Of a DNA stretch of 57,102 bases, positions 318 through 54,270 are shown in pieces. The notes beneath the pieces were generated by a model. The model made no database searches and was not told where the DNA came from. It saw nothing but the letters and a program-made list of their open reading frames with translations. The stretch's first letter is position 1. The number at the start of each line of letters is the position of its first letter. Both the position numbers and the translations under genes were made by a program. This DNA comes from an uncultured Acidobacteriota bacterium (lineage in GTDB: Bacteria > Acidobacteriota > CAIWXX01): assembly GCA_903916735.1 (NCBI GenBank), contig CAIWXX010000128.1, forward strand, positions 1 through 57,102, read 5' to 3'.

Positions 318-320
318 GAC

Positions 321-516
321 CGAAATCCGCGGATAAGGGATTACGGCCAGCCATCAGATAGTATCGATAGACCCGGCATGGCGGTTCGGCAGGAGCCTCG
401 CCCTTCCAATCCATCGATCAAGATATCCTACGGAATGAGAGGGCGAACGTCCTCGCGAGCCGTCTAGCCATGGCTCAGAAACATTTCAAGATGCACGCGC
501 TTAGCCGCGGATCGGG
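321..516. repeat. R1 dispersed element, near full-length copy (about 196 bp)
   Basis: It starts CGAAATCCGCGGATAA and ends TTAGCCGCGGATCGGG, so the ends form an imperfect inverted repeat around ATCCGCG. It aligns end to end with the element at 20539-20747: shared left 60 bases (including CCATCAGATAGT.TCGATAGACC), a shared middle with CGGCAGGAGCCTCGCCC and CTCGCGAGCCGT, and a shared right end. No clean target duplication is visible here; GGAC occurs on both sides but overlaps the end. It is non-coding. Confidence 0.8.
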
Positions 517-1016
517 GACGTTGAGGCTTTTGCGGTGCGGGGGAAGGCCTGGCCGCCAAAGGTTTCGCAGGGCGCCAAGAAGCTCTTCCCCAAGGAATCT
601 CTCATGGTACACAACTGCCTGGGAGCGCGCGCATCTTGCACGCCATTAAAAGGGCCTTCCTTGGCGGCCGATTAAGGCCGCCGAGACGGCGGCGGTCCCA
701 GCTCAAAAGCTCTTCTCCAGGATAGAAACGCAGCTCCTGTCACGAAAGCGGCTTTCCTGGCAAAAGGTGGAACATATAATCGGGTGCATAACAGTTCTGT
801 GGGTACTGACTGTACTCAGGCCAGAGCTTCATATTGGACGATCCCGGAACGCGAATCCATCAACCATAATCGTAGCCGTCGACGTCTGCGACTACGGGGA
901 TTGAAGCGTTCATCTGCGTGGCAGGCGGCTCACATCCCGACACGCCAAAGTCCGATTACATCCAGAAGCGTTACGCGCCCCTGCGCGGCTGTCCGCTCTC
1001 AGTACTTTAACCCATA
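517..1016. other. Non-coding stretch with strong overlapping hairpins
   Basis: No convincing gene. A 10-bp stem with a 6-base loop spans 660-685 (CTTGGCGGCC with GGCCGCCGAG, one G-T pair). It overlaps a perfect 7-bp stem with an AGA loop at 677-693 (GCCGCCG/CGGCGGC), so the two cannot form together. The frame upstream of 1027 stays open back to 784, but its translation is rich in Arg and Ser and resembles no protein, so I treat it as non-coding. Confidence 0.5.
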
Positions 1017-17612: not shown

Positions 17613-18998
17613 CTATTTCGGGGTAGCTTTAGGCTCAAGAAATTGAGCGCACTTGGTGCAAAGGGCTCGCGCATCCTTATAATTCTGGTCCATATCGAGC
17701 ACGGCTCGGAACGCCACAGACGCCTCCTTGTACTTCTTTTGCTTGTAGTAAATAATACCTATTTCATACTTGACATTGGCGATAGCCGATTTGATTTTCT
17801 CACCCCGCCGAATCACATTCAGAGCCCGCTGTTCATCCCCTGCCCTTATCCACAGGTCGGCGGCACGCACGTAGAGATTGCCGTCTTCGGGCTGAATGGA
17901 GATGGCGGTTTCGATCGTCTTGGCAGCGTCTTCATGCTTCCCCATATCGGCATAGGAATTGCTCAGTGCCAAGAGAATTCGCAGTTCCTTTGGAGCGTAT
18001 CGCATCGCCTCCTTAAGCATCGACGCGCGTCTGGGAGGATGAACTTCATCCATCGCCTTCTGATAAAGCTCTGTTGCTTTTTTCCCCTGCGTACTCAGGT
18101 AGGCGCCGACTTCAGAGACGCGTGGGGCAAGATCTTTGTAGTTCGAGTTAATACGCGTCGCAGCATTGAAGGCTACCTGTGCTTCCGTCATGTCCTTCAA
18201 CTGCGTGTAGCTGATGCCCAGAAGATACCAGACCTCGATTTCATCCGGGATGAGTTTTGCCGCATTCACGAGACTCGTCGCGGCTTCCAGATGCCGGTTC
18301 TCAGCCATCTCCACTCGACCCAGCTCAAGGTAAGCTTTCCCGTTCTTGGGATCCACCTTGATGATGTTTCTCAGCGCATCGCGCGCATCTTTAAAATTTC
18401 GACGTGACATGTGAATTGCAGCGATGTCGAAGTAGTTATGGATGTTGGAAGGATCGGCCTTGATACGCTTCTTGAGTGAAGCGATCTCCAATTCTACATC
18501 CTCGGAGGGCAGGGATGGAGCACTCGGATTGAATGCGGCGCGGGGTGAGGAGGATGCTGCTTGCGTTCGGGTTGCGTCCTGAGCGGCCTTGAAGGCCCTC
18601 AGGACTTCCGGCGGGAATCGTGTCGCTGAGATCAGATTGGGGTCTTTCAAGCTGTTGACGAGTCCCACGTACTTACTCGACTGATCAGGAGCCTTCAGCT
18701 GGCAAAGTATGGCGGCCTCGTAGACGTAACATACCCCCAGCTTGGGTTCGTCGTCCAGCAAACCGAATGCAGCAATTCGCAGACACTCAGCAGCCTCAGC
18801 TAGCGATCCGCTGCGGTACAGCCCAAGACCCTCGTCCAGGAGTTTTAGATAGAAGGGATCAGGACCACCCTCTCCCTCCGCTCCCCGGGCCAACCCCTGC
18901 TGCAGTACCCAGCTGGCCATGGAGAGGAAAACGGGGAGGCTGGTTTTCCGAAGGAAGAAAAACATCCTCTTCGCCACCGTCCTGGATATGATCACCAT
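17613..18998 (-). CDS. Exported TPR-repeat protein (copy with long TPR C-terminus)
   Basis: About 461 residues from ATG 18998. Signal peptide RKTSLPVFLSMASWVLQQG cut near ARGA, an N-terminal helical domain of about 140 residues, then at least six TPR-type units (for example RRNFKDARDALRNIIKVDP, NRHLEAATSLVNAAKLIP, GKHEDAAKTIETAISIQP, KKYKEASVAFRAVLDMD). The first about 165 residues are nearly identical to the gene at 19295-20410; the two then diverge completely. The start is not certain: GGAA is only two bases upstream, and ATG 18965 is an alternative. It is probably a periplasmic scaffold of the export system. Confidence 0.75.
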   Translation of the reverse strand: MVIISRTVAKRMFFFLRKTSLPVFLSMASWVLQQGLARGAEGEGGPDPFYLKLLDEGLGLYRSGSLAEAAECLRIAAFGLLDDEPKLGVCYVYEAAILCQLKAPDQSSKYVGLVNSLKDPNLISATRFPPEVLRAFKAAQDATRTQAASSSPRAAFNPSAPSLPSEDVELEIASLKKRIKADPSNIHNYFDIAAIHMSRRNFKDARDALRNIIKVDPKNGKAYLELGRVEMAENRHLEAATSLVNAAKLIPDEIEVWYLLGISYTQLKDMTEAQVAFNAATRINSNYKDLAPRVSEVGAYLSTQGKKATELYQKAMDEVHPPRRASMLKEAMRYAPKELRILLALSNSYADMGKHEDAAKTIETAISIQPEDGNLYVRAADLWIRAGDEQRALNVIRRGEKIKSAIANVKYEIGIIYYKQKKYKEASVAFRAVLDMDQNYKDARALCTKCAQFLEPKATPK

Positions 18999-19209
18999 AG
19001 TTCCGCACAATGTTTGAGAAGTACAGAGAATGTCAACGAAACACGCTGCATCTTTGCCGCCCCTCGAACGCCACCGTAACAATTTTGCACAATACCTGAG
19101 AGACACAGTAAATGTCAATGAGAGCCATATCAGGCGCCGATCCGCTGGACGTAGGCCTCGTCGATTTCCAGCTCCACGGCACACTACTGATGAGCGTGAC
19201 CCGTAGTAC
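18501..19209. repeat. Duplicated segment, copy 1 (about 710 bp, without R1)
   Basis: It matches 19910-20835 at a constant offset of 1412 bp from 18531 to 19126 with no net indel. At 19126 the offset jumps to 1628 because the other copy carries 216 extra bases. It covers the first about 500 bp of the TPR gene, the upstream spacer and the last 80 bp of the NusG-like gene. Confidence 0.9.
19130..19209 (-). pseudogene. 3'-end fossil of the NusG-like gene
   Basis: It matches the last about 80 bp (LVLRVTLISS...AYVQRIGA, stop) of the gene at 20758-21312, with two extra bases near 19182 that break the frame. It is a by-product of the segmental duplication, not a gene. Confidence 0.85.
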
Positions 19210-19294
19210 TAATTGTCCGATTGCCAAGTGTGAATTGGTGCTACCCCATATTCCAGATGCAGTAGTCAGCCGGAGAGAATCTTGTGAACTGAAA

Positions 19295-20410
19295 TTATCG
19301 TACAGAGTGTTCTATGATTCTTGTAACGATGTCATTGTCCATAATCAGATAAAATGGAGTTTCACCGTTTTTGCTTCCTCGGCGAGACTCGATCCGCTTT
19401 TTGTACTCATCGCAATTCATTGTCAGCATGGATTTTTTATCCGGATTCGCATCATCATTCAACGTAAAAAACGCATCAACCGCCAATTCAAAAGTCCTGA
19501 TCTTTGGATTCACATTCTTGATATAGACGCCGTTTTTCGGACGGCAGCCATGCGGATCAGCGGGATCGCCCCATTTTTCGCAAGCGCCGTCCTTTCTCAT
19601 TTGATTGGTCGCCTCATCTCCCGTGAAAAGCTGGATGTAATCGGCGTCAACATAATTCTTCCCATCCCGCTCAAAAATTTTGGTGATGAAGCCTATGGGG
19701 GTATCCCTTGTTATTGTTATCTGGGGAGTATTTGCCGTTTCGAGCTTATCCTTTTCGGCAACGGAGTCACCGGTGTTGGTGGAGCCGACCGCCTGAGAGA
19801 GAGATTCATCATTGCGCGGTTTCTCGGCGACTCGCTGATCGGCTGGACCTGGCATTGGAATGGTTCCGATCTTCTGGAAGGCTTCCGTTTTACCGGCCCC
19901 CTTTGCAACCTCGGCGGGCGGGAAGAATGGAGCAATCGGATTGAATGCGGCGCGGGGTGAGGAGGATGCTGCTTGGGGCCGGGTTGCGTCCTGAGCGGCC
20001 TTGAAGGCCCTCAGGACTTCCGGCGGGAATCGTGTCGCTGAGATCAGATCGGGGTCTTTCAAGCTGTCGACGAGTCCCACGTACTTCCTCGACTGATCAG
20101 GAGCCTTCATCTGGCAAAGTATGGCGGCCTCATAGACGTAGCATACCCCCAGCTTGGGTTCGTCGTCGAGCAAACCGAATGCAGCGATTCGCAGACATTC
20201 AGCAGCCTCAGCTAGCGATCCGCTGCGGTACAGCCCAAGACCCTCGTCCAGGAGTTTTAGATAGAAGGGATCAGGACCACCCTCTTCCTCCGCCCCCCGG
20301 GCCAACCCCTGCTGCAGCGCCAGGCAGGCCATGGAGAGGAAAACGGGAAGGCTTGTTTTCCGAAGGAAGAGAAACATCCTCTTCGCCACCGTCCTGGATA
20401 TGATCACCAT
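19295..20410 (-). CDS. Exported protein sharing the TPR-gene N-terminus, with a different C-terminal domain
   Basis: About 371 residues from ATG 20410. The signal peptide and helical N-terminal domain (about 1-165) are near-identical to those of the 17613-18998 gene. A Pro/Ala/Lys linker follows. The C-terminal domain of about 135 residues begins TPQITITRDTPIGFITKIFE and contains YVDADYIQLFTGDEA, GVYIKNVNPKIRTFEL and TPFYLIMDNDIVTRIIEH. This last type occurs in exported proteins of several phyla; I do not know its function. It lies directly downstream of the NusG-like gene and its R1 insertion. Confidence 0.7.
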   Translation of the reverse strand: MVIISRTVAKRMFLFLRKTSLPVFLSMACLALQQGLARGAEEEGGPDPFYLKLLDEGLGLYRSGSLAEAAECLRIAAFGLLDDEPKLGVCYVYEAAILCQMKAPDQSRKYVGLVDSLKDPDLISATRFPPEVLRAFKAAQDATRPQAASSSPRAAFNPIAPFFPPAEVAKGAGKTEAFQKIGTIPMPGPADQRVAEKPRNDESLSQAVGSTNTGDSVAEKDKLETANTPQITITRDTPIGFITKIFERDGKNYVDADYIQLFTGDEATNQMRKDGACEKWGDPADPHGCRPKNGVYIKNVNPKIRTFELAVDAFFTLNDDANPDKKSMLTMNCDEYKKRIESRRGSKNGETPFYLIMDNDIVTRIIEHSVR

Positions 20411-20835
20411 AGTTCCGCACAATGTTTGAGAAGTACAGAGAATGTCAACGAAACACATTTCACCTTTGCCGCCCCCGGAACATCACCGCAACAGTTTTAC
20501 ACAATATCTGACAGACACAGCAAATGTCAATGAGAGCCCGAAATCCGCGGATAATGAACGGCGGCAAGCCATCAGATAGTCTCGATAGACCAGGCATGAT
20601 GGCTCGGCAGGAGCCTCGCCCTCCCAAACCACCGATCAGGGGAATGCTTGATATATGGAGGGGACGGCTCGGCATCCTCGCGAGCCGTGTCGCAGAGGCT
20701 CCAAAGCCATTTTGTCGCAATATGCGTGTGCTTACTCGCGGATAGGGGAGAGCCATATCAGGCGCCGATCCGCTGGACGTAGGCCTCGTCTATTTCCAGC
20801 TCCACGCCACTACTGATGAGTGTGACCCGTAGTAC
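19910..20835. repeat. Duplicated segment, copy 2 (contains the R1 insertion)
   Basis: Partner of 18501-19209. Without the 216 bases made of R1 plus one target copy, its length equals that of copy 1 within 1-3 bases. The two direct repeats are separated by about 700 bp of unique sequence (19210-19909). Confidence 0.9.
20539..20747. mobile_element. R1 element, 209 bp, MITE-like, flanked by 7-bp target duplication GAGAGCC
   Basis: The left flank GAGAGCC (20532-20538) is repeated as the right flank (20748-20754). The paralogous site at 19120-19126 has GAGAGCC once with no element between. The ends are imperfect inverted repeats: CGAAATCCGCGGATAA on the left, and TTACTCGCGGATAGGG on the right, whose complement also reads ATCCGCG at the same distance from the end. 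Inside is a perfect 8-bp stem ACGGCTCG/CGAGCCGT (20664-20688) and GGCTC/GAGCC near 20601. There is no open frame, so it must move with the help of a transposase made elsewhere. It separates the NusG-like gene from the rest of its operon. Confidence 0.85.
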
Positions 20836-21312
20836 CAGACGAGATCCGGTTTTTCTCCGGACAAACGTTCCGCGGACCCCCTTCAGCGGTCCCGCGCACA
20901 CGCAGACAGGGGTCCCGGGCTCGTGAACAGCCTGGCAGTAGAGAACCGGCGCAGACTGCAAGGCAATAGCCAGGCTGGTCAGCTCTTCCCTGAGCTGTTC
21001 CTGATTCGACGTGTAGAGAATGCTGGCCACCTTGTTCGATTCCAGCACCTTCGCTTTGATGACAGCGCATGCATCAAAAAATAAATAGCCTGGAAAGAGC
21101 GGTATCTCTGACTCACGAACATGCCGCCCATATACACGACGATTGCGGATCAGAGGCAGGTAGGTATCCACCTTCAGGTGGCCTAGGTACTTGACCAGGG
21201 CTTTCTCCGCGCGGGACCTGGTCCGCGCCACCGCCCACTCCCCGACGCGTGGAATTGGCGCTTTCTCCAAGTAAAGCGCGTCGATCTTGCCTGGAGTGTC
21301 GTCCTTGCTCAT
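20758..21312 (-). CDS. NusG-paralogue transcription antiterminator (RfaH/UpxY/LoaP type), head of polysaccharide operon
   Basis: 184 residues. NGN domain: GEWAVARTRSRAEKALVKYL (about 24-43), LPLIRNRRVYGRHVRESEIP and LFPGYLFF. C-terminal KOW motif: GPLKGVRGTFVRRKTGS (about 144-160). Specialised NusG paralogues of this kind bind RNA polymerase at the start of long polysaccharide operons and suppress termination. It is the first minus-strand gene of an approximately 11.8-kb co-directional series ending at 9494, so it probably acts on its own operon. There is no good Shine-Dalgarno before ATG 21312 (TCTCCT precedes it). Its last 80 bp are duplicated at 19130-19209. Confidence 0.85.
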   Translation of the reverse strand: MSKDDTPGKIDALYLEKAPIPRVGEWAVARTRSRAEKALVKYLGHLKVDTYLPLIRNRRVYGRHVRESEIPLFPGYLFFDACAVIKAKVLESNKVASILYTSNQEQLREELTSLAIALQSAPVLYCQAVHEPGTPVCVCAGPLKGVRGTFVRRKTGSRLVLRVTLISSGVELEIDEAYVQRIGA

Positions 21313-54180: not shown

Positions 54181-54210
54181 TTCGACACCCTGTTATGCAT
54201 AGTCTCCCAC

Positions 54211-54270
54211 CGAAATCCGGCGATAAGGAATGGCGGCTGCAAGCCATCAGATAGTTTCGATAGACCCGGC
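54211..54270. repeat. R1 truncated copy (left 60 bases)
   Basis: It starts CGAAATCCGGCGATAAGG, keeps GCAAGCCATCAGATAGT and TCGATAGACCCGGC, then stops matching. Only the left end of R1 is present. It ends 24 bases before the next start codon, so it supplies part of the leader of the kinase gene. Confidence 0.8.

Follow-up and report, generated by a model that had tools for sequence, protein, structure and literature searches.

A 211-bp copy of a new Acidobacteriota MITE family located beside its own empty site

Chunjie of Geobacter uraniireducens is a bacterial MITE, reviewed in PMC10969869. The 211-bp element of an uncultured Acidobacteriota bacterium described below resembles it in being short and non-coding, in having inverted ends and a target duplication, and in occurring in tens of mostly intergenic copies; moreover, Chunjie has also been located in an operon, as this element has been. 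The two differ in sequence, ends, and host, and for the present element no parent transposon has been found. Inverted repeats of the Tn3 type begin with GGGG. TIMEs, the Tn3-derived inverted-repeat miniature elements, are about 260 bp long, carry no genes, and are flanked by 5- or 6-bp target duplications (PMC4133298). A duplication length of 5–6 bp is common to TIMEs and to this element, but TIMEs have 38-bp ends of the Tn3 type, while in the element under study the similarity of the ends extends over about 18 bp and the ends begin with CC. Since 38-bp Tn3-type inverted repeats are not present, its identity as a TIME was rejected.

Members of the IS1634 family produce target duplications of 5–6 bp. 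For the IS1634 copies of Acidiphilium, 6-bp repeats are listed alongside and are worded there as inverted repeats (PMC4549789). The duplication length of this family is compatible with that of the MITE, but the IS1634 copies found in these genomes have ends that do not match those of the MITE. As for the REP, REPIN, and BIME sequences, a REP-like palindrome of 24 bp lies within the element and also occurs in another Acidobacteriota genome; REPs, however, lack true ends and target duplications, while this MITE has both.

The window, i.e., the whole stretch of 57,102 nucleotides that was analysed, corresponds to contig C128 in a draft genome of 5.37 Mb (G000, hereafter the own genome). It bears a local duplication whose two arms (Table 1) are 93.2% identical before the insertion point (18497–19126 versus 19906–20538) and 95.6% identical behind it (19120–19209 versus 20748–20835). 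Alignment of the arms bears out the initial annotation in that 216 bases are present in one arm only, the offset changing from 1412 to 1628, and in that the heptamer GAGAGCC is found once in the uninterrupted arm (19120–19126) and twice in the filled one (20532–20538 and 20748–20754). The same annotation held that these offsets fix both ends of the element to the base, which turned out to be wrong: because bases match at the junction, the same 216 bp can be split as 209 + 7, 210 + 6, or 211 + 5. Within 17613–20458, the duplication has placed one and the same N-terminal part before two C-terminal parts that differ, the products being a TPR protein (17613–19184) and a 387-aa ORF without a Pfam match (19295–20458). 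Within its first 8 kb, the window contains further paralogous stretches with 73–84% identity (981–2541/6332–7252 and 4973–5232/7442–7701).

Table 1. Coordinates of the MITE copies, their parts, and the duplication arms in the window.
Feature	Position	Strand	Evidence or remark
Duplication arm with empty site	18497..19209	.	arm alignment
Unoccupied paralogous target site, AGAGC once	19121..19125	.	sequence and arm alignment
Duplication arm with insertion	19906..20835	.	arm alignment
Left target-site duplication AGAGC	20533..20537	.	flank comparison of copies
211-bp MITE copy, consensus orientation CCGAAATCC...GGATAGGGG	20538..20748	+	95.3% identity to family consensus over 1-211
Left terminal inverted repeat (CCGAAATCCGCGGATAAG in the family consensus)	20538..20555	+	87-100% conserved per position, 38 copies
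REP-like palindrome GGAGGGCGAGGCTCCTGCCGAGCC, 24 bp, inside element	20601..20624	-	32 matches in own genome, 47 in G066
Right terminal inverted repeat (CCCCTATCCGCGAGTAAG in the family consensus)	20731..20748	-	38-copy comparison
Right target-site duplication AGAGC	20749..20753	.	flank comparison of copies
Diverged, older MITE copy of this family (198 bp)	320..517	+	76% identity to consensus; lacks an intact target duplication
Fragment of another copy, left end	54210..54270	+	match to family

The choice among the possible cuts is made by the family alignment, which comprises 38 copies and gives an element of 211 bp with a 5-bp duplication. When the flanks of these copies are compared, matching is confined to a single diagonal (−5..−1 versus 0..+4), where it reaches 58–71% against a background of about 25%. 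Perfect duplications of 5 bp were found in 15 of the 38 copies and those of 6 bp (TCGGCC, TTGAAC, TGAGGA, TCATCA, and TGATGA) in five, while shuffled flanks yielded a mean of 0.39 perfect 5-bp matches, with a maximum of three. In about 13 copies, no more than three of the five duplication bases match and there is no perfect 6-bp repeat, as expected for old or rearranged copies. A duplication of 7 bp, proposed earlier together with an element length of 209 bp and expected to recur in the flanks of further copies, is rejected: with the 211-bp ends, none of the 38 copies matches over seven bases. The copy under study has AGAGC as its duplication, and the outer G and C of GAGAGCC are chance matches; the heptamer appears because the element begins with C and ends in G, bases equal to those adjoining the site. 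Thus, the proposal of a MITE-like family with a 7-bp duplication was right as to a non-coding mobile family beside its own empty site, but not as to the length of the duplication or of the element.

The ends are imperfect 18-bp inverted repeats (CCGAAATCCGCGGATAAG and CCCCTATCCGCGAGTAAG) whose common parts are CC, ATCCGCG, and TAAG; the likeness between them ceases at about position 18. The inverted ATCCGCG noticed initially is real but belongs to a longer repeat. Between the ends there is no conserved reading frame, every frame having stops in some or all copies, and the length of the copies varies freely from 205 to 215 bp. Both strands fold more stably than shuffled sequences (z = −2.9 and −3.1), which is expected, since the element is full of inverted repeats. 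The palindrome GGAGGGCGAGGCTCCTGCCGAGCC occurs 32 times in the own genome, all but about two of these occurrences being within MITE copies, and once in the related genome G001; of the 47 matches in G066, the other Acidobacteriota genome mentioned above, some stand free as inverted pairs with a spacing of about 100 bp (for example, at C26:26515–26661). Such a distribution points to a REP-type palindrome captured by the MITE.

A search of the own genome with the element revealed 48 matching stretches in about 40 loci, well beyond what chance would produce, and loci found through the end motif alone bring the family to more than 40 members. As the initial annotation had anticipated, the element is multi-copy, with shared ends and with target duplications at many copies. 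The mean pairwise identity of the 22 full-length copies compared is 93%, and most full copies are 93–98% identical to the 211-bp consensus. A second, shorter form (about 146 bp) lacks positions 73–125; the family further includes three copies with a divergent second half (loci L029–L031) and diverged copies and fragments. The family thus unites shared terminal inverted repeats, a target-site duplication, and the absence of coding sequence with short, dispersed, multi-copy members (211 and 146 bp), as is characteristic of MITEs. Twelve unpaired matches of the end motif in the own genome proved to be either copies that are truncated or small repeats of other kinds; at six of these sites, the ORFs disclosed no transposon framed by such ends. 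The loci L066 (near 3581) and L072 (near 2408) both carry ATCCGCGGATAAGAAA-GCTCATCCAG and may represent one more repeat family that has this end motif.

Insertions are mostly outside genes. When the flanks were joined in silico, the insertion point fell into a stop-free frame of more than 150 aa in 20% of copies, compared with 75% of controls taken at other positions in the same flanks (p = 6e-12). The studied copy comes immediately after the stop codon of a gene with a NusG domain (20758–21312, minus strand, PF02357), and the gene on its other side, with a start near 20458, is on the same strand. A constant association with nusG-like genes, which would have spoken against mobility, was not observed across the copies.

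Outside the own genome, a DNA search of 99 genomes (the own genome and relatives) gave matches in two others, and these in the REP-like core only; an exact scan for the element core found nothing in GTDB contigs or IMG/VR, and plasmid and phage collections contained no match to the element. The end motif ATCCGCG-NN-TAAG has 76 matches in the own genome and 72 in G001 (versus 0 for the reversed motif), while 58 other relatives have 0 to 5 each, within the range of the reversed control. G001 is Acidobacteria bacterium NC_groundwater_627_Ag_B-0.1um_62_56 (JACPPM01), the nearest sampled relative, which represents the only other sampled genus of the same bacterial family. There, the motif is part of another MITE, which is 285–300 bp long and has an additional 166-bp form. 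It resembles the MITE of the own genome in the end motif, in the duplications of 5–6 bp (among 14 elements, perfect 5-bp in ten and perfect 6-bp in two), and in the host family, but its interior is unrelated and each of its ends is a complete palindrome of about 31–33 bp (CCTGAATCCGCGCGTAAGACGCGCGGATTCAGG and CCCAAATCCGCGGCTTAGCCGCGGATTTGGG). Since two unrelated interiors share ends and duplication length, the data suggest that one type of mobilising enzyme stands behind both MITEs in this bacterial family.

An autonomous transposon with the same ends, which the initial annotation proposed to look for, was not found in either draft genome among the transposase families searched (IS1380, DDE_Tnp_1, IS1634, and Tn3); MITEs usually have such a relative, although their definition does not demand one. 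IS1380 is absent from both genomes, none of the 11 DDE_Tnp_1 loci carries MITE ends, and Tn3 is represented in the own genome by just two transposase fragments, neither with these ends. IS1634 has left relics (eight matches in the own genome and three in G001), but none of its loci carries the MITE ends, and copies among them end in CTAGCGCATGTTTGCA or CTAGCCCRACTTCCGCA. Decayed IS1634 copies lie at G000:C8:12135–13340, C70:44718–45429, and G001:C8:4165–5412; compared with the G001 copy, to which it is 80% identical in DNA, the C70 copy lacks about 490 bp of the interior, and the right ends are CTAGCCCGACTTCCGCA. Judging by the duplication length, the best guess for the mobilising enzyme is an IS1634-like transposase, which is a lead and not an identification because the IS1634 ends found here differ from those of the MITE. 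In both drafts, several contigs terminate within repeats, and the autonomous partner may be lost or lie in an assembly gap.

All this makes it very probable that the 211 bp are a MITE copy which was mobilised in trans by a DDE transposase, generated a 5-bp (in other copies sometimes 6-bp) duplication, and was inserted after the local duplication. The enzyme would recognise ends of the type CC-N3-ATCCGCG-N2-TAAG and make a staggered cut of 5 bp, sometimes 6 bp, in the intergenic target that separates the nusG-like gene from its neighbour, after which gap repair would duplicate AGAGC; the insertion would be later than the duplication of the arms. The reverse order, in which the element is the older and the 19120 arm lost it precisely along with one copy of the target, would leave an identical site if excision removed one AGAGC; furthermore, the event is not sharply dated by the divergence of the arms (about 7%) and of the copy from the consensus (about 5%). 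Yet the 19120 arm retains neither a scar nor a partial remnant, and with DDE elements precise excision is much rarer than insertion; it is accordingly the less likely course and, in our estimation, an improbable one.

The REP-like palindrome and the stable folding of both strands (z about −3) could also evoke an element of the REP/BIME type whose movement depends on a Y1 (RAYT-like) transposase instead of a DDE enzyme, the more so as the own genome has 16 loci of Y1 transposase (PF01797). Y1 enzymes are not known to duplicate their target, and exact 5- or 6-bp duplications at 20 of the 38 copies argue against this mode of movement, which we hold to be very improbable. No REP-type palindrome of the GGAGGGCGAGGCTCCTGCCGAGCC kind lies near the Y1 loci, and one MITE fragment adjoins a Y1 gene (C182), probably by accident, the other Y1 loci having none. 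The Y1 loci lie on C136, C178, C182, C87, C36, C121, C51 (ends), and other contigs of G000, and several are cut at contig ends, as if the assembly were broken by a Y1 element present in multiple copies. That the element is a structured RNA or a cis-regulatory element tied to the neighbouring genes might be supposed from its strong hairpin and its position between two genes of the same strand; nevertheless, its presence at about 40 unrelated loci in dispersed copies with target duplications, its absence from the paralogous site, and the lack of any Rfam family match in the window at the gathering score render such a role scarcely credible.

The MITE copy thus cleanly documents an insertion with the empty site next to it. 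Its family is new, although the kind of element is well known, and is now defined in Acidobacteriota, which helps repeat masking and the finding of the missing transposase. It is conceivable, though rather unlikely, that the ends CC-N3-ATCCGCG-N2-TAAG mark a whole MITE superfamily of one Acidobacteriota family, served by a transposase of an undescribed type, and that in this genus the interior of the MITE captured and amplified a pair of REP palindromes.
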